64,000 nt of DNA from Semisulcospira habei (lineage: Eukaryota > Mollusca > Gastropoda > Semisulcospiridae), in NCBI GenBank assembly GCA_036245525.1, contig BTPG01000001.1:223718126-223782125 (forward strand), read 5' to 3'. The position numbers and the translations under genes are program-made. Shown one piece after another: positions 239-64,000 of this stretch (position 1 is its first letter; every line of letters begins with the position of its first letter). The notes beneath the pieces were generated by a model, which saw only the letters and a program-made list of their open reading frames with translations, was not told the DNA's origin and did not search any database.

Positions 239-283
239 GGTGAAGGTTCGATGCGTTCCCACTTCTTGGATTTACACTTGCGT
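239..283 (-). CDS. gene A: cytoplasmic juxtamembrane exon
   Basis: This 45-nt exon lies between a TTTTCAG acceptor and a perfect GTAAGT donor. Joined in phase 2 to the transmembrane exon (780-873), it adds a split Ile and then RKCKSKKWERIEPS. This basic stretch straight after a hydrophobic helix is a typical stop-transfer signal, which places the N-terminus outside the cell. It ends in phase 2, so the cytoplasmic tail continues further left. Confidence 0.7.
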
Positions 284-779: not shown

Positions 780-873
780 ATGATAATGAAGCATAACACA
801 AGCGCCCCGATGAAGCCCAAAGCCAAGAGAGAGCCGAGGACAGCCAGCAACGTAATATCCGTACCAACCCACT
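780..873 (-). CDS. gene A: transmembrane exon
   Basis: The 94-nt exon follows a TTATTTTTCAG acceptor and ends at a GTGAGT donor. It encodes about 31 residues: WVGTDIT and then an uninterrupted hydrophobic helix (LLAVLGSLLALGFIGALVL and on). It enters in phase 1, completing a Lys codon with the A left by the sushi exon at 4290-4460, and leaves in phase 2, matching the basic exon at 239-283. The in-frame TGA seen if the donor is ignored is intronic. This makes gene A a single-pass type I membrane protein. Confidence 0.8.
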
Positions 874-4289: not shown

Positions 4290-4460
4290 TAGTACAAGCT
4301 GGTTGGTTGCTCCACGTCTTGTCTGCATTGCACTTTGCTGTAGGACTGCCTTGCAGCTCATACCCAGTGTCGCACGTGTAGGTACACACCGAGGAATACC
4401 GGTTGTCGTCCGTACAGTTCCTTTGGCAGTTGGGTATCGTTGGCCAGGTACAGTTGATTA
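4290..4460 (-). CDS. gene A: sushi (CCP) domain exon, membrane-proximal
   Basis: A 171-nt phase 1-1 exon encodes one complete sushi domain. Visible landmarks are INCTWPTIP, RNCTDDN, SSVCTYTC, GYELQG, AKC, TWSN and QPAC. It has six cysteines (the usual four plus a pair at RNC and SVC) and the conserved Trp before the last Cys. A long pyrimidine tract and CAG precede it, and the donor is GTACGT. The A left at its end joins the transmembrane exon. Sushi domains are extracellular beta modules used in adhesion, complement-type recognition and receptor stalks. Confidence 0.88.
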
Positions 4461-4996
4461 CTGAAAAAAACATCAACAGAAATTCAACAGAAATTCAAAT
4501 TTCTAATTCAAATTTAACAGCATAATTCGGACAAATTGCTTTGTAATGTTTCGCTCCAAACATTGAATCCACATACGCGCGCTTGGGAAAGACATTTCTT
4601 AAACTCAAAAGGCAGACAATGAAACACACAACGCATGTACTAGAAGCCGCCTCCAGAATTTACTGGTAGCACCACTAGTACAGCGCGGATTGAGTGCATT
4701 TGTGGGCTTTGGGCGATGCCTTTGTTAATAGTAAAGAATAATTGTACCACAAAATTGCCTAGGTGTTGCCTTTTCAAAATTAGTCTGTCTGCTTATACTC
4801 TAGCTGCTGGAAACTCCACACGAATTTTGCCGCATTGCAGTAAAGAACAAAATCAAAGACGCTGGGTATTTACACCTCAAACATATCACTCCTCCCATGA
4901 CTAAGATATGTCTATGGGCCATTACTTTCATGACGTGATACGTATACGGTTTACGTCAATACATGCAGTTTAATGTATTTAGTGTTATAAATTGTA
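4461..4996. other. intron, nothing recognised
   Basis: Gene A intron sequence between a sushi exon and the first TTAA palindrome. No repeat family or coding frame was recognised. Confidence 0.5.
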
Positions 4997-7296: not shown

Positions 7297-7467
7297 TGAG
7301 ACACAAAGGCCGGTCGCTCCATGTTTTGTTTGCTGTACACTGGACACTGGAGTTGCCGTTAAGTTCATAGGCCGTGTCGCACGCGTAGGTACATACTGAG
7401 GAATAACGGTTGTCATCTGTGCAGTTCCGCCGGCTGTTGGGTATCGTGAGCCACGTACAGTTGATTC
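7297..7467 (-). CDS. gene A: sushi (CCP) domain exon
   Basis: A 171-nt phase 1-1 exon with the same length and cysteine plan as the exon at 4290-4460: INCTWLTIP, RNCTDDN, SSVCTYAC, AYELNG, VQC, TWSD, RPLC. The acceptor is CTTTAAG and the donor GTAAGC. Its first two bases are GA, so the incoming partial codon matters: an A from the exon at 8240 gives Arg, whereas the T left by the exon at 7679 gives a TGA stop. The close match to 4290-4460 suggests recent exon duplication. Confidence 0.87.
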
Positions 7468-7678
7468 CTTAAAGCATTAGAAAAAATAAACTGAGTTAAT
7501 TTGAATTTTTTATTGCAAATTCGAAACCGAAATTCAGACAAGTCATTGGGTGTGGTTTTGTATAATTGTGGAAGAATTAATAGAAGATAAACGAACTGAT
7601 GAAAGAAATTAAGATTATGAGAGGTAGTGCGAAACATTTTCAAAACCTATCGACATCACTGAATTTAAGTACTTTAAC

Positions 7679-7854
7679 AAGGACATTTAGGGGGAGTAGT
7701 CCACGTCTTATTTGTCATACAGGTGATGTCAGCATGGCCATGGAGTTCGTGCCTCGTGTTGCACGTGTAGGAACACACTGACCCATATTCCGTGATGTGG
7801 TGCACACCCTGTGGCTCCAAAGGGCAACGTGAGGCTCCAAGGGGCAACGTATTA
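7679..7854 (-). pseudogene. gene A: damaged sushi exon (frameshift and junction stop)
   Basis: The sushi landmarks are clear (EYGSVCSYTCNT, HELHG, ITC, KTWTTPPKC) and a TTTTTAG acceptor lies at 7857-7855. Near the exon start, GGCTCCAA(A/G)GGGCAACGT is present twice in tandem (20-bp period, about 7811-7850), so the exon is 176 nt instead of 156 and loses frame. A cryptic acceptor AG at 7836-7835, created by the duplication, would restore a 156-nt phase-1 exon. At the other end the best donor (GTTAAA) leaves a single T, which joins GA of the next exon to form TGA. The exon is either decayed and skipped, or a poison/terminal exon. Confidence 0.75.
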
Positions 7855-8239: not shown

Positions 8240-8407
8240 TTTGACACGCAGGTTGGTTGCTCCACGTCTTGTCTGCTCTGCACTGTGCAGTAGGACTGCC
8301 CTGTAGTTCATATCCATTGTCGCAAGTGTAGGTACACACTGACGAGTACCAGTTGGCAACTGTGCAGTTGCGCTGGCTGTACAGCACTGTAGGCCACGGA
8401 CACGTTA
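8240..8407 (-). CDS. gene A: first sushi (CCP) domain exon
   Basis: A 168-nt phase 1-1 exon following CUB2. It encodes TCPWPTVLYSQRNC, then SSVCTYTCDNGYELQG, AQC, TWSN and QPAC: six cysteines and the conserved Trp. The acceptor is GATTTCAG and the donor GTAAGG. The A from the CUB exon at 9945 completes an Ile codon. Its own final A can join the exon at 7467 as Arg, so the damaged exon between them can be skipped without loss of frame. Confidence 0.88.
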
Positions 8408-9411: not shown

Positions 9412-9607
9412 ACCCATTTAACCCCAAGATTTTATTTCCCAAATTTTGGAGGTGCTAGTTAGGGACTATGTACCTGTTGCAGGAGATGAATCGACCATGA
9501 TAATTCAAGGGTAGTGCCAGATGAGCTTGACGCTCATCTGGCACTACCCTGAATTATCATTGTCTATCCGTCTCCTGCTGTAGGGATTTGGGGGCTAAAT
9601 GGGTTAA
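9412..9607. mobile_element. TTAA palindromic MITE, copy 2
   Basis: Ends ACCCATTTAACCCC and GGGGCTAAATGGGTTAA; arms contain GATGAATCGACCATGATAAT and its complement. The centre is shortened to GAGCTTGACGCTC. Confidence 0.75.
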
Positions 9608-9944: not shown

Positions 9945-10063
9945 TTGCTAATGTGTAGTTAGCCTGAAAACCTCGAGGTGTAACGGAATGGTCTGTAATA
10001 AATGTCACGGTCATAAGACTTCCGCTGGAACGTAATGGTGCGGGCAGTGAGGTACCATCAAAT
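9945..10063 (-). CDS. gene A: CUB2 C-terminal exon
   Basis: A 119-nt exon between TATTTTGCAG and GTAAGA, phase 2 in and phase 1 out. It encodes FDGTSLPAPLRSSGSLMTV, then FITDHS and PRGFQANYTLA. This matches the end of a CUB domain, where a Ser/Asn-Met beta strand is followed by GF-x-A-x-Y. The usual Cys in the FCG position is Asp. It joins the exon at 14474 (…PILGR) and the first sushi exon. Confidence 0.82.
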
Positions 10064-14473: not shown

Positions 14474-14533
14474 CTGCCAAGAATAGGGTCATCAACGGTG
14501 CCGTCATACACCGTAACAAAATCGTAAGTATGT
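14474..14533 (-). CDS. gene A: CUB2 middle exon
   Basis: A 60-nt exon between GTTTCAG and GTAAGT, phase 2 in and 2 out. It encodes HTYDFVTVYDGTVDDPILGR with the split codons at each end. The D-x-V-x-V-Y-D-G strand is the hallmark of CUB domains and often contributes calcium-binding acidic residues. It joins LEFLEFQLE of the exon at 15018 without a gap. Confidence 0.85.
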
Positions 14534-15017: not shown

Positions 15018-15168
15018 TCCAGCTGAAACTCGAGAAACTCCAGCACTATAGGCTGTGGCGATGTGGGTCTGATCTCCGTGATGTTGAAACAGTGGTTAGG
15101 GTACGATGAAGGATAATTTGGTGATTGAAGTGTGCCGGTGTTTGCAGTCATGATATGCTTGCATTGCG
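15018..15168 (-). CDS. gene A: CUB2 N-terminal exon
   Basis: A 151-nt exon between TTATTTTAG and GTGAGT, phase 1 in and 2 out. It encodes QCKHIMTANTGTLQSPNYPS, then SYPNHCFNITEI and VLEFLEFQLE. This is a textbook CUB start: Cys, G-x-x-x-S-P-N-Y-P, a second Cys about 27 residues on, then the L-x-F-x-x-F-x-L-E strand. It is the same length as the CUB1 start exon (26963-27113). Confidence 0.88.
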
Positions 15169-15566: not shown

Positions 15567-15712
15567 ATGAATCTTTCTCAAATATGGATGTGCCTGAGAC
15601 TGCGTACTGTGCACTAAATCCAGTACCGATAGAAGTGCTGGATGATATTACTTGCACAGTCATTAGGTTACTTGTCGAGTGGACAGCGGGTGGAACAGAA
15701 GAACCGGAAAAT
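15567..15712 (-). CDS. gene A: CUB1 C-terminal exon
   Basis: A 146-nt exon between TTTAACAG and GTAAGT, phase 2 in and 1 out. It encodes FSGSSVPPAVHSTSNLMTVQ, then GTGFSAQYAVSG and FEKDS. The CUB ending S-x-S-N-x-M-T-V plus GF-x-A-x-Y is clear. The normal FCG Cys is Ser. It joins the exon at 19391 through a 3.7-kb intron that now holds the RTE element, and runs directly into CUB2. Confidence 0.87.
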
Positions 15713-16038: not shown

Positions 16039-19000
16039 CATCATCATCATCATCAGTCCCTTGCCCGAACTGGGCGTTGGGGGGACTGAAAGGCAGCAGC
16101 AACAGACAGTGCTCTCCACTGAGTTCTATTTTGGGCGGTGGCAAGCAAGTCTGGCATCTCGAGTTCGGTCCATTCTTTTATGTTTGCGACCCAACTCTTT
16201 CTCTGACGACCTCGCCGACGACTTCCTTCGAGAGTGCCTTGGAGGATAGTCTTGGACAAGGTGTTGTGTCGGGTCACGTGGCCAAACCAAGCAAGCTTGC
16301 GCCGTTTCACGGTTGCCAGAAGGGGTTCATGTGGGCCCACCAGGGAAGTGACGATGCTCCGTACATATTCGTTGGTCTTGTGCTCGCGGTACGAGATGCG
16401 GAGCAACTTCCTCAGGCACTTGTTCTCAAAGGCCTGGATTTTCTTTTCTGAGTCTGCAAGCAGTGTCCAAGTCTCACAGCCGTAGAGTAGAATAGACACT
16501 ACGAGGGACTTGTAAAGCCTGTACTTGATGGTGAAGCTGATGGAGTTACTTCGCCATATCCTGTCCAGCCTGGCCATTGCGGATGTTGCTGTACCTATCC
16601 TGATACGGATCTCTGCTATGCAACTACCGTCTTTGGACAGGGTGGCTCCCAAGTACTTGAAGCTATTGACCTCTTCTAGCTTCTGGCCGTTCATGTGAAT
16701 GTTGCTGCTGCTGTCGCTTGTGGTGTTGATCATCACTTTGCTTTTATCCGTACTGATCTCCATGCCATAAGACCCTGCGCTACTTGAAAGTTTGTCTGTC
16801 AGGTTTTGGAGCTCACTATTGCTGCCTGCCATGAGGTCAATGTCGTCTGCGAATCGAAGATTGCACAGGGATCTGCCACCAATAGAGATTGAAGTATGGT
16901 GGTCGTGGAGGGTTTCCTGCATGATCTTCTCCAGGAATATGTTGAAAAGGACAGGAGAGAGCAGGCATCCTTGACGGACACCGATCGTCGTCCTGAAGAA
17001 CTCGCTTGACTGATTGTTAAGTAGAACCGCGCTGCAGGCGTTCTTGTAAAGCGCTTCTATCATTTGGATCAGTCCCTCCTCTATGTTGAACGATCTCATG
17101 ACTTGCCAGAGTCCGTCGTGCCAGACGCGATCAAATGCTTTCCTGAAATCAATGAAGTTGTGGTAGAGTTCGCGCTGATGCTGCAGATGTTTCTCGATCA
17201 GGACGCGGCAGTTGAAAATCTGCTCTACAGTGCTTCTTCCAACTCTGAAGTCAGCCTGTTCTTCTGCCAGCAGTTCCTCGGCGAAAGTTTTGAGGCGGTT
17301 GAGAATGATTCTAAGCATTACTTTGCTAGGGTGACTTATCAGACTGATAGTTCTGTAGTTCTGGCACTGTTTCAAGTTTCCTTTCTTGGGGAGCGGGATC
17401 ACTAGAGACTGTGTCCATTCTACTGGCCATTTCTTTTGCTCCCAGATCTTTTGACAGAGTGTAGTGAGGACCTTCGTTGTTACTTCTCCTCCATGTTTCA
17501 ACAGTTCAGCAGGTACGTTGTCTACACCTGGAGACTTTCCTCCCTTCAGGCCGCGTACGGCTGCTTCCACCTCTTCAGCTAACACTGGCAGGTCTTCAGC
17601 CTTCCTGGCCCCAGCCTGGTTGTTTTGGAGGATGCTGGTGTCTGGCTCAGCCTTGTAGTTATACAAGTCTCGGCAGTACTCAGTCCATCTGTTTAGTACA
17701 GCAGTGTTTTCCGTAAGGAGTTGGCCGCTGCTGTCTTCGATGACTGTGGCTGTTCGCTGTTGAGTCTTGGTGAGGGTCCTTAGCGTTTCATAAGCCTTCT
17801 TGCTGTTGCCGTTTGCCATGCCCTCTTCCACGCTACAACACTGGTCTTCAATCCAATCTTCTTTGGTTTCTTTCATCCTCTTCCTGATCTTCTTGTTGAC
17901 AAGTCTGTACTTGTTTGCTGATGTGAGGTCTTGGCCTCTCTTTTTCTTCCAGGCTCTCCTCTCATCACAGAGATCGAGGATGTCATCGGTGACCCAGGGC
18001 TGTTTGCGCTTCCTCTGCTTCCCCAGCACTTCTTCTGCTGTAGAAAGTAACACCTCTTTTATATTTCCAGCAAGGGTGTCTACGTCACAGTCCAAAGTAG
18101 CCAAGGCTGCAAATCTGCCTCCCACCTGGGCTTGGAAGAGCTCTTCTACTTCCGGGTCTTTTAGCTTCTGGAGGTCGAATCTGATGCGAGGGCTCTTGCT
18201 ATCTCGTTTCAATGCCAGCTTCAACTTGAGGCTAGTAAGGACGAGGTTGTGGTCGCTGCCAATATCAGCGCCAGGAAAGGACCTCGTTTGTGCTTTGTTA
18301 ATGCTGGATTTGAATCGTCGAGGCAGCAAGATGAAGTCAATCTGGTTATGGACCAGGCCTCCTGGCGATTGCCATGTCACTGTTCTTGACTTCTTGTGTG
18401 GATGGAGGGTATTAGCAACGGTGAGACGGTGACTCTGTGCGAACTCTAAAAGTCGCAGGCCTCTGTCGTTTGTTTCTCCAAGGCCAAACTTGCCAGCTGT
18501 TCCTGCCCATTGTTGGTAGGCGTCAGGGCCGATCTTTGCATTCCAGTCACCGAGGACAGTCAGAATGTCTTTCTTAGGTGTTTTCTTGATGATGTTGTCC
18601 AGTTGTTCGTAAAATTCTTCTAATTCTTCATCATCATGATCTGCTGTTGGAGCGTATACTTGAATGATAGTGATGTTGTGCGGTCGGGCGGAGATGCGGA
18701 TGGAGATTAGTCTGCTTGACACGGGGGTGCAGCTGATGACAGTTCCAGCCACCTCTTTCCTTACGATAAAAGCTACGCCATGTTCGTGCTTGGTTTCTTT
18801 TCCGCTGAACCAGATTTTATGGCCTTCATCTGTTGTTGTTTCTCCGAAGCCTGTCCATCGAACTTCTGCAAGTCCTACAATGTCCCAGCGATAGCGCTTC
18901 AACTCGTGGGTGAGTTCCTTCACTTTGCCGCACTGGTAGAGTGTGCGAACGTTCCAAGTTCCGATAGTTATTCCTTGCGTGGGCAGCTTGATGGTGGGTT

Positions 19001-19372
19001 TGGTTCCAGTAACACACTTGTCGCCCCCACCCTGGAGACCTCCAATGGGGTGCGCGGTCGTTGGTGATCCGGGCCCCGACCGATCCGGCATGTTATTCTT
19101 ATTCTGTTGCTTGTCCATCAGTCCTTTCAATGGGCTTAGGCGAACTTGGCGGCGCCCGTCTCCTCTCCAAGTATTTCAACTGACTGAGAAACGCGTCAGC
19201 CCCTCACAACGTTTCGCCCGCCAGCAGAAGCGGTTACCGGGGTGTGGCTAGGTAAAGGACCTGGAGCCAGCTGTGAGAGTTGAGTGCCATGTGAAGACCA
19301 GTGCTCCCGCCTGCCCCAAGAGGCGCTGCTGGCAGAAAAGTCAAAGGTACTACTTCTCCATGAACACTCTAC
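16039..19372 (-). mobile_element. full-length RTE-type LINE with target duplication
   Basis: ACTCTACTCAGT flanks the element at 16027-16038 and 19373-19384. The minus-strand element has a ~240-nt 5' UTR (19131-19372), one 1025-codon ORF and almost no 3' UTR: the TGA stop runs directly into a (TGA)n tail at 16039-16055. The right-hand target duplication starts immediately after the GTAAGT donor of the CUB1 middle exon. An intact ORF and exact duplication point to a recent insertion. Confidence 0.9.
16053..19130 (-). CDS. RTE LINE endonuclease/reverse transcriptase
   Basis: This 1025-residue protein copies the element by target-primed reverse transcription. An apurinic-type endonuclease domain occupies about residues 53-300: GTWNVRTL (57-64), AEVRWTGFG, QVYAPTAD, GDWNAKIG (194-201), QIDFILLP (263-270) and GSDHNLVLT (291-299). 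Reverse transcriptase follows at about 520-860: IPLPKKGN, FIDFRKAFDRVWHD with the first catalytic Asp, GVRQGCLLSPVLFNIF and the catalytic RFADD (759-763). The C-terminus has LLYGCETW, KLAWFGHVTRH and a basic GSRRRGRQRKSW. There is no frameshift or premature stop and all catalytic residues seen are present. M5 and M14 are alternative starts. Such proteins are often mislabelled 'craniofacial development protein 2-like'. Confidence 0.93.
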   Translation of the reverse strand: MKGLMDKQQNKNNMPDRSGPGSPTTAHPIGGLQGGGDKCVTGTKPTIKLPTQGITIGTWNVRTLYQCGKVKELTHELKRYRWDIVGLAEVRWTGFGETTTDEGHKIWFSGKETKHEHGVAFIVRKEVAGTVISCTPVSSRLISIRISARPHNITIIQVYAPTADHDDEELEEFYEQLDNIIKKTPKKDILTVLGDWNAKIGPDAYQQWAGTAGKFGLGETNDRGLRLLEFAQSHRLTVANTLHPHKKSRTVTWQSPGGLVHNQIDFILLPRRFKSSINKAQTRSFPGADIGSDHNLVLTSLKLKLALKRDSKSPRIRFDLQKLKDPEVEELFQAQVGGRFAALATLDCDVDTLAGNIKEVLLSTAEEVLGKQRKRKQPWVTDDILDLCDERRAWKKKRGQDLTSANKYRLVNKKIRKRMKETKEDWIEDQCCSVEEGMANGNSKKAYETLRTLTKTQQRTATVIEDSSGQLLTENTAVLNRWTEYCRDLYNYKAEPDTSILQNNQAGARKAEDLPVLAEEVEAAVRGLKGGKSPGVDNVPAELLKHGGEVTTKVLTTLCQKIWEQKKWPVEWTQSLVIPLPKKGNLKQCQNYRTISLISHPSKVMLRIILNRLKTFAEELLAEEQADFRVGRSTVEQIFNCRVLIEKHLQHQRELYHNFIDFRKAFDRVWHDGLWQVMRSFNIEEGLIQMIEALYKNACSAVLLNNQSSEFFRTTIGVRQGCLLSPVLFNIFLEKIMQETLHDHHTSISIGGRSLCNLRFADDIDLMAGSNSELQNLTDKLSSSAGSYGMEISTDKSKVMINTTSDSSSNIHMNGQKLEEVNSFKYLGATLSKDGSCIAEIRIRIGTATSAMARLDRIWRSNSISFTIKYRLYKSLVVSILLYGCETWTLLADSEKKIQAFENKCLRKLLRISYREHKTNEYVRSIVTSLVGPHEPLLATVKRRKLAWFGHVTRHNTLSKTILQGTLEGSRRRGRQRKSWVANIKEWTELEMPDLLATAQNRTQWRALSVAAAFQSPQRPVRARD

Positions 19373-19390: not shown

Positions 19391-19444
19391 CGACCAAGTT
19401 GAGTGTCTCCAATACATCCATCATAGACAATGACAGTGTTGGAC
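19391..19444 (-). CDS. gene A: CUB1 middle exon
   Basis: A 54-nt exon between a T-rich tract ending CAG and a GTAAGT donor, phase 2 in and 2 out. It encodes SNTVIVYDGCIGDTQLGR, equivalent to the CUB2 middle exon. The RTE insertion begins six nucleotides into the following intron, leaving the donor intact. Confidence 0.83.
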
Positions 19445-20682: not shown

Positions 20683-20846
20683 CGTTATTGGTAGCTGGGG
20701 TTTGCTGCACGGACTCTTGTAAGGCCTTCGGGAGGTCAAAGTAACCATTGTACCCCTCAAGCCCTCGGCCTTCGGGGTACACTGGTTACTTTGACCTCCC
20801 GAAGGCCTACAAGGGTCCGTGTAGCAAACCCCTGCTACCAATAACT
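20683..20846. repeat. 164-bp palindrome
   Basis: GTTATTGGTAGCTGGGGTTTGCT and GGCCTTCGGGAGGTCAAAGT on the left are mirrored by their complements on the right around CCCTCAAGCCCTCGGCC. Single copy in the window. Confidence 0.75.
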
Positions 20847-26962: not shown

Positions 26963-27113
26963 CCTAATGTGAACGCAGAAAACGTTAGATGAATAGTCCG
27001 GAGTCCTGGGGGATTAATGAAAAAGACGTAGTTGGTTGAACCTGGATATGTACCGGGAAAGCCAGGGGAGGTAAACGTGTCAGAAGTGCTGGAAAGTATC
27101 CGGAAAGCATTAT
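26963..27113 (-). CDS. gene A: CUB1 N-terminal exon
   Basis: A 151-nt exon between CTTTCAG and a GTACGG donor, phase 1 in and 2 out, the same size and phases as the CUB2 start exon. It encodes SDTFTSPGFPGTYPGSTNYV, then INPPGLRTIHLTFSAFTLG. The F-x-S-P-G-F-P-x-x-Y-P signature is clear, but both cysteines of the usual first CUB disulfide are missing. It joins the signal-peptide exon upstream with an Asn split codon. Confidence 0.82.
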
Positions 27114-60873: not shown

Positions 60874-63800
60874 ATGACGGACAATGTTCAAAGCTCATCA
60901 GGCCCATCTGGTTTAAGAAACGTGTTTCACACAACAGATTTGCCTATATCAAATACTAATAATGTTATGAATCGATAGAAAACTCTTTTTCTGTCATACA
61001 AGATAATCTTCTTACAGGCAGTGTAAAGATACAGATTGTTGCTAAAATAGAATTTACTAGAGTAGACGGTAAAGTGATTGTATCGTACATAATCAACAAG
61101 ACAACACACAGTTAACACCAGAAGAGAATTAGAGAACGTGTTTAGAGACAGACTATTACCAGACTTCCTCCAAGCAATTGACAGTGCAAAAATGAAGGGG
61201 TCTGGTTGGCACGAAGGACATGTACATGAACTACAACTAAAGCAGTCAAGGTATCATCCTATATTAGGTAAAGCATGGATACCACTGCTAACAGAGGTTG
61301 CAAACAAAAAGGCTGTTGTTAACATACAGAACAATGACAATTTTTGTTTTATGTGGTGTGTGCTTGCTAAACTACATTATGTAAAAACAAGACCTGATCG
61401 AGTATCTAACTACACTAAATTTGTAAATGAACTCAACTTCAGTGGCATTGAGTTCCCTGTTAAAATAGAGGACATAGACTTGTTTGAAAAACTAAATCCT
61501 GGTATATCTGTAAATGTGTTTGTGTGGGATAATGAGTCTGTCGGCAAGTTACAACCCATTAGAGTATCACCACTTGCTCCAACCTACGGTCAGTCAGAAG
61601 ATAAGCATGTTGACATGTTGCTAATAGGCCCTGCCGGTGATAACAATAACTTTCACTACACAATTATCAGAAATATGTCACGTCTAATTCATGGGCATAC
61701 AACAAAACACAATGGTAAACAGGAAGTGTGTAAAAAATGTTTACAAAGATTTCTTCTATTGCAGTGGCACACAAACACGTCCTGCATTGTAGGTCGGCTG
61801 ATGACATACAAACTGTACTTAAGTATCCAGATCCTGGTAGTCAAGTATATTTTAAGAACTATGGGAATCAACAAAAGCTGCCGTTTGTAGTGTATGCTGA
61901 TTTTGAATCACTGGTAGTACCATATGAAGGTCCTGTTCCAGAGTCATTACCAAAGACTATAAAACTAAGTGACCAAGTGGTGTGTTCTTTTGGATACATT
62001 ATTGTTAGGTCTGATGGCCAGCATTCAGAACCTGTTATCTACAGGGGAGAAAATGCAGCATGTCTGTTTTTAACAGAAATGAGACATCTGTATAGTCAGG
62101 TAGTACAGTATCTCACAACATGTCAGATGCCTTTGGTAATGACAGAAGAAGACAAACTGAAATTTGATACAGCTGAGACGTGTTGGATTTGTGAACAACC
62201 CCTCCAGGGTGATAAAGTTCGTGACCATGATCACATAACTGGGCGTTACAGAGGTGCTGCACATAACAATTGTAACTTGTTATTAAAAACAGATCCTAAG
62301 ACATATAAGTTACCAATCTTTTTTCACAATCTCAAAGGATATGATTCACACATTATCATGCAGGCTGTGGATGAATCTTACAAAAACATAAGTTGTATAG
62401 CGCAGACAACTGAGAAATATTTGACTTTTAGGTTAGACAAATTATCATTTTATGACTCCATGCAACATTTGTCTTTAGGTCTTGCCAGTCTGGCAGAAGG
62501 TCTGACTGAGTATCCAATAACAAGTAAATATTTTGAACCAGACTTGATTAAGAAAGGTGTGTATCCGTATGAGTACATTGATCATTGGGTTGTGTTTGAG
62601 GAAACAAGACTGCCACCAAAAGAGAAATTTTATTCTACACTTAATGGTAAAGGTATTTCTGACTCTGATTACCAGCATGCACTTGATGCGTGGGGGAAGT
62701 TAGGGTGTCAGACAATTGGTGACTACCATGACCAGTACTTGAAAGCTGACGTTTGTTTGCTAGCAGACGTATTTGAAAGTTACCATGAAAAGGGTTTGTT
62801 ACACTACAAGCTTGACCCGGCTTGTTACATAACTAGTCCTGGCATGACATGGGATGCATTTTTGAAATCCAGTAAGATATCTATAGACCTGTTGTCTGAT
62901 CGTACGATGGGTGAAATGATGGAACGTGGATTGAGGGGAGGGATTAGTATTGCAGCGAACAATTACGCAAAAGCAAATAATAAATATATGGATGGTCATG
63001 GTGACCTTGGGTTTGACCCCTCAAGGTCAAGGTCATTCATTACCTATGTAGACGCTAACAATTTGTATGGCTGGGCGATGTGTGAGTTATTGCCCTTGAA
63101 AAACTTTTGTCTGCATGATTTGTCACAGTATGATGTAACAGAGTCAGGGTTAACAAACTATATTATGACTCTTGACCAAAACGATCCGAAGGGTTGGATC
63201 TTTGAAGTAGACCTGGAGTATCCACACCATCTACACGATTACCATAATGATTATCCATTAGCTGTTGAAAAAATGAGTATGACAGGTAAAAAAGAAGACA
63301 CCAAACTTGTGCCAAATTTGAATGACAAATTCAATTACGTTTGCCACTATTGATTGCTGCAGTTTTACATCAGACACGGGTTAGTACTAAAGAAAGTTCA
63401 CAGAGGAATTCAATTTGATCAGAGTGCTTTCATGAAAGATTACATAATGAAGAACACAACATTGCGTGCAAGGGACCGCAACACTGCATTTGACAAAGAC
63501 TTCTTTAAGCTTATGAACAATGCCTGTTTTGGCAAGACAATGGAAAATCCTCATCACCGCAAAGATGTGAGACTTGTCACAACTGAATCGGGTGCAATTA
63601 AACTTACAGGTAAACCACAGTACACTGGGTACAAAGAGTTTCATTCATCATTGTATGCAGTGTCACTCAAAAAAAAAAGATTGTTAAACTGGACAAGCCA
63701 GTATTCATTGGTATGGCAATTCTTGAATTATCAAAACTGTTGATGCTTGAATTTTATTATGATTACTTTAAACCAAAGTATCCTGAGTGTACTCTGCTAT

Positions 63801-64000
63801 ACACTGACACTGACTCTATGATCATTGATGTGTGTACTGAAGACTTTTATGAAGACATGAAAACAGAACTACACATGTATGATACGTCTGACTACCCTAA
63901 GGATCATCCACTGTTTAGCACACAAGACAAGAAAGTGCCTGGAAAGTTTAAGGATGAACTGAATGGTGTGCCAATAGTTGAGTACGTTGGTCTGAGATCC
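60874..64000 (+). pseudogene. Polinton/Maverick-type protein-primed family B DNA polymerase, broken, runs off the window
   Basis: This protein would replicate a large DNA transposon or its adintovirus-like relative. A candidate start is MTDNVQ at 60874. Motifs in order: CWICEQP plus DHDHITGRYRGAAH (treble-clef, endonuclease VII-like, about 62186-62275); exonuclease YADFESL (about 61890), FFHNLKGYDSH (about 62320) and YHDQYLKADVCLLADVF (about 62725); polymerase YVDANNLYGWA (about 63047), NNACFGKTMEN (about 63517) and the catalytic LLYTDTDS (about 63799). Breaks: frame changes near 60955-60985, 61105 and 61755, an in-frame TGA at 63351-63353, and a frame change at the A run near 63669-63678. 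It is therefore a recent relic, not a working gene. The rest lies to the right. Confidence 0.88.

Follow-up and report, generated by a model that had tools for sequence, protein, structure and literature searches.

We asked whether a sushi-like exon, here named Sx, in a predicted CUB-and-sushi membrane protein gene of the gastropod Semisulcospira habei is an exon in use or a remnant that is now left out of the mRNA. Sx contains a 20-bp tandem duplication, and an earlier note on this DNA had read it as an exon whose use yields either decay-prone mRNA or a secreted protein, with skipping keeping the membrane form. The window, i.e. the whole stretch of DNA analysed, comprises 64,000 nucleotides (contig BTPG01000001.1, positions 223,718,126 to 223,782,125 of the forward strand), and all positions below refer to it. 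As set out below, Sx probably once coded for a sushi domain, as one of the gene's four paralogous sushi exons; it would have ceased to do so recently, and splicing would now usually bypass it. The earlier interpretation is partly supported.

The host gene and its sushi exons

On the minus strand, from ~27.1 kb down to the low end of the window, lies an animal gene for which 11 GT-AG exons were placed as follows.

26963..27113, minus strand: CUB1 exon a (motif and splice fit)
19391..19444, minus strand: CUB1 exon b (splice fit)
15567..15712, minus strand: CUB1 exon c (splice fit)
15018..15168, minus strand: CUB2 exon a (Pfam CUB, 27.8 bits; cut-off, 21.4)
14474..14533, minus strand: CUB2 exon b (motif and splice fit)
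9945..10063, minus strand: CUB2 exon c (splice fit)
8240..8407, minus strand: sushi exon S1 (168 nt, phase 1-1, Pfam Sushi)
7297..7467, minus strand: sushi exon S3 (171 nt, phase 1-1, Pfam Sushi)
4290..4460, minus strand: sushi exon S4 (171 nt, phase 1-1, Pfam Sushi)
780..873, minus strand: transmembrane exon (hydropathy and splice fit)
239..283, minus strand: cytoplasmic exon (splice fit; the gene extends past the window)

Joined without Sx, the 11 exons encode 443 residues with no stop, and the predicted product is a membrane protein with the order CUB1 (three exons), CUB2 (three exons), S1, S3, S4, transmembrane segment and cytoplasmic segment. The transmembrane stretch stands out by a hydropathy peak of 2.68 over 19 residues, compared with at most 1.03 elsewhere in the gene model. 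The model is partial, as the signal exon and the gene end were not found in it and the long introns may hold more exons. The two CUB domains that the earlier note had placed upstream of Sx were recovered: Pfam supports one CUB exon (CUB2 exon a), as it does the sushi exons, and the remaining CUB exons were assigned by motifs and splice fit. Because S1, S3 and S4 are all phase 1-1, skipping of Sx keeps the frame, and loss of Sx takes away a single domain while sparing the protein; this bears out both the frame-neutral skipping between phase-symmetric neighbours (S1 and S3) that had been claimed and the claim that the skipped form keeps its membrane anchor, since the 443 open residues include the transmembrane exon.

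Besides exon sequence, S3 and S4 have 74 nt of upstream intron in common (7467-7541 and 4460-4534, minus strand), which is, to judge by the sequence, the trace of a tandem exon duplication. A comparison of the Sx flanks (400 nt per side) with those of the other sushi exons gave no match at E ≤1 except overlapping self-matches. Likewise, when stop-to-stop pieces of at least 18 residues in six frames were searched with a profile, no further sushi relics came up, the next best piece after S1, S3, S4 and Sx having an E-value of 0.14, and a search against Rfam returned 0 matches at gathering scores.

Other elements were observed in the window. An intron of the gene holds, at 16056-19175 on the minus strand, an ORF of 1040 residues for a reverse transcriptase/endonuclease; among the 120 matches listed of 463, none of which names an animal, it is 93% identical to a protein from an environmental contig and 87% identical to a protein filed by NCBI under a Plesiomonas shigelloides metagenome-assembled genome (MAG), and the latter is apparently an animal retroelement that was binned with a bacterium. 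By eye, long open frames at 61734-64000 on the plus strand resemble a mobile-element DNA polymerase of type B, and fold-back (inverted) repeats lie in introns at ~20690-20830 and 9490-9570.

Sx and its tandem duplication

The fourth sushi-like exon and its duplication are placed as follows.

7679..7854, minus strand: Sx, degraded sushi exon between S1 and S3, 176 nt from the original acceptor
7811..7850, minus strand: 20-bp tandem duplication, two adjacent copies

The open frame across Sx (7910-7677) matches Pfam Sushi with 29.8 bits (cut-off, 20.7), covering only positions 19-56 of the 56 of the profile. Because open runs of at least 77 codons are not in themselves rare here (88 of 3147 minus-strand runs), it is the domain match, and not the open run, that serves as evidence for Sx. 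Its residues are identical to those of S1, S3 and S4 at 15-16 of 34 positions. The in-frame form of Sx has five cysteines, compared with six, six and seven in S1, S3 and S4, respectively, and, because this count is odd, one cysteine is without a partner, so that Sx lacks the even, fully paired set of a sushi (CCP/SCR) domain. We also compared Sx with a set of 34 sushi domains, three from this gene and 31 cut by pattern from 5 of the 18 proteins of the similarity searches. In 21 of the 34, a cysteine precedes the motif C-x(1,2)-[FYSL]-x-C, and 20 of these 21 have at least two cysteines ahead of it; Sx has one.

The duplication that the earlier note had described is real: copies 7850-7831 and 7830-7811 (minus strand) adjoin and are identical at 18 of 20 positions. 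The unit pattern, with up to three mismatches allowed, matches these two places alone in the window (chance expectation, 0.07), and two unit matches occurred in none of 100 shuffles. Near-perfect adjacent duplications with units of 12-40 number 11 in the window, whereas five Markov controls had 0, 0, 0, 1 and 1, so that no special cause is required for one to fall within an exon. Among the 11, only three units reach 20 or more, and several of the short ones apparently lie in microsatellite-like stretches.

A single sequence underlies the duplication, and it could accordingly be a low-frequency allele or an assembly error, with Sx otherwise in use. There is little chance of this, as two mismatches in 20 sites between the copies are odd for an assembly error, and as the weak donors and the nearby stop described below are separate from the duplication. 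If the copies were initially exact, two differences arising within the age of a young allele would have a probability of 0.017, 0.060 or 0.12 at an assumed diversity of 1, 2 or 3%, respectively. The copy divergence of 10% (95% interval, 1-32%) fits a recent loss and, provided that the copies started out exact, mildly opposes a very young allele.

Splice outcomes at Sx

The sites that bear on the splicing of Sx are the following.

7835..7836, minus strand: cryptic AG (GAG); with the exon starting at 7834, it is in frame and 156 nt long
7671..7678, minus strand: two weak donor-like GTs, giving exon ends 7679 and 7673
7781..7782, minus strand: best internal donor-like GT, which with the acceptor at 7854 gives an open 72-nt mini-exon
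7514, minus strand: AATAAA, ~50 nt ahead of the S3 acceptor

From its original acceptor (before 7854), Sx is 176 nt long (2 mod 3), is thrown out of frame by the duplication and runs into a TGA at 7717. As had been claimed, the cryptic AG restores a frame of 156 nt, and joining this form to S3 forms TGA across the junction (T|GA). With the second GT, six bases on, the exon ends at 7673 and the sushi frame includes a TAA at 7676. Both acceptors with both expected donors therefore lead to a premature stop.

We scored donors as matches to the nine-position U1 consensus. The expected donors of Sx score 4/9 (end 7679) and 5/9 (end 7673), whereas the 11 other donors score 5, 5, 5, 6, 6, 6, 7, 7, 7, 8 and 9. 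Among the 1679 GTs in the region, 981 equal or beat the first Sx donor and 372 the second, whose score is also that of the weakest donors used in the gene model. With no other donor below 5, these scores do not sustain the view that Sx is actually used. Because the Sx donor is poor, we infer that skipping is the rule: a degraded donor would make for poor exon definition, and the spliceosome would join S1 to S3. Nothing unusual marks the original acceptor, a TAG with pyrimidines at 10 of 17 positions (9-16 in the other exons). If Sx were occasionally included, translation would stop early, ahead of several exon junctions (four in the model, including Sx-S3), and the mRNA would be a likely target of nonsense-mediated decay.

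The ordinary acceptor, and the early stop that the expected donors give with more junctions downstream in the model, would also suit a regulated poison exon, included under some conditions so that mRNA decay lowers the level of the receptor. We consider this unlikely, as both expected donors are weak and Sx resembles a domain exon that was selected as protein until recently, not a conserved non-coding exon.

The secreted form proposed earlier (CUB-CUB-S1-Sx, without membrane anchor) would arise as an alternative last exon if the cryptic AG were used, the donor were ignored, translation stopped at the TAA at 7676 and the mRNA ended after the AATAAA at 7514. In-frame Sx does end just past the last sushi cysteine, with that in-frame stop, and the AATAAA is present at 7514, but the chance of finding one in 200 nt of this sequence is 0.13. 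Moreover, this form requires a GAG acceptor 20 nt beyond the TAG, GAG being a poor acceptor when it lies behind a TAG; none of the 11 other exons has a GAG acceptor, and the cysteine count of the resulting domain is odd. These points speak against the proposal, which is very unlikely. Since no signal-peptide exon was found in the model, secretion itself would in any case have to be presumed.

Pairing 22 AG with 22 GT positions around Sx (exons of at least 20 nt) yielded nine open combinations, none of which keeps the sushi domain. In one of these, the frame change caused by the duplication makes the stretch 7854-7783 (72 nt) open, and its inclusion would add 24 residues between S1 and S3. This mini-exon is mechanically possible, so the outcomes of inclusion are not confined to decay or secretion, as the earlier note had it. 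Its phase fits, it uses the original acceptor, and its donor (6/9) is the best among 17 GTs scanned over Sx; however, 100 of the 1679 GTs in the region (6%) match U1 as well, and no domain match is expected for the peptide. That it is a used exon is highly improbable. An exon from an upstream CAG acceptor (from 7871) was rejected: when it follows S1 in phase 1, a stop can be seen by eye no more than a few codons in, and the nine open pairings do not include it. Overall, the proposal that the duplication made Sx a working switch, either from membrane to secreted form by way of the cryptic AG and a premature end or by means of the new 72-nt mini-exon, is quite unlikely as a whole, a membrane/secreted switch being possible.

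Probable loss of the exon and known systems compared

Synonymous sites of Sx differ from those of S1, S3 and S4 by 63, 74 and 59%, respectively, and nonsynonymous sites by 33, 31 and 31% (34 codons), giving Ka/Ks values of 0.32, 0.13 and 0.35, which are rough because the sites are few and Ks is near saturation. We also simulated neutral decay with 450 mutants, starting from the siblings S1, S3 and S4 and not from the ancestor of Sx. The fraction that stayed open and scored at least as well as Sx was 0.34, 0.09, 0.01 and 0.00 at 0.05, 0.10, 0.15 and 0.20 substitutions per site, respectively; neutral decay thus abolished an open, equally scoring frame within ~0.1-0.15 substitutions per site. Taken together, Ka/Ks and the simulated decay suggest that Sx was under coding selection for most of its history and that this constraint was lost recently. 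We saw no near orthologue among the 13 proteins of a first similarity search, in which the protein with the lowest E-value was 35% identical over 39%, or among the 6 of a second, in which the best was 36% identical over 96% of the query segment; contig scans did not yield one either.

Sx is impaired in frame, stop, donor and domain alike. In favour of a dead, skipped exon are its sushi homology, the stops with either expected donor, the weak donors, the odd cysteines and the 443 open residues without it. Against this stand the ordinary original acceptor, the open 72-nt exon with its 6/9 donor, a second donor equal to the weakest that the gene accepts, and a sushi frame that is open across Sx and ends right after the last cysteine like a usable secreted end. 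A dead domain exon is ordinary in kind. Here, one has probably been caught soon after its loss, in a setting where exons of the same phase make that loss harmless to the remainder, and it would offer a small natural example of the shrinkage of multi-domain receptors. If RNA showed Sx in use, we would instead be looking at an isoform switch created by one 20-bp duplication.

Poison exons, as characterised in an excerpt of PMC11062102, are skipped in the coding form and bring an early stop upon inclusion. Sx would resemble them in both respects, its skipping being predicted, but differs from a typical poison exon in its weak donors, and regulated inclusion and conservation belong to poison exons. 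Unlike symmetric exon-shuffling modules, Sx, counted from its original acceptor, has lost a length divisible by three. Same-phase modules are described in an excerpt of PMC6335736 as prone to frame-preserving skipping, with weak splice sites accompanying skipping; a reviewer printed in the same paper counters that, for the most part, exons that are skipped lie outside domains.

The known system closest to Sx is KIR2D pseudoexon 3 of humans, a domain exon retained in the gene and absent from the mRNA according to an excerpt of PMC3504360. In both, a membrane receptor with several domains has a complete domain exon that its gene keeps and its mRNA leaves out, an absence that is established for KIR2D pseudoexon 3 and predicted for Sx. 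Of the features of a domain pseudoexon, Sx shows homology to domain exons of the same gene, a coding lesion (nine short open pairings exist) and a gene that is open when the exon is skipped. The two differ in the domain, which is Ig-like in KIR2D and sushi in Sx, and in that the frame break, the junction stop and the weak donors of Sx are visible in the DNA itself.
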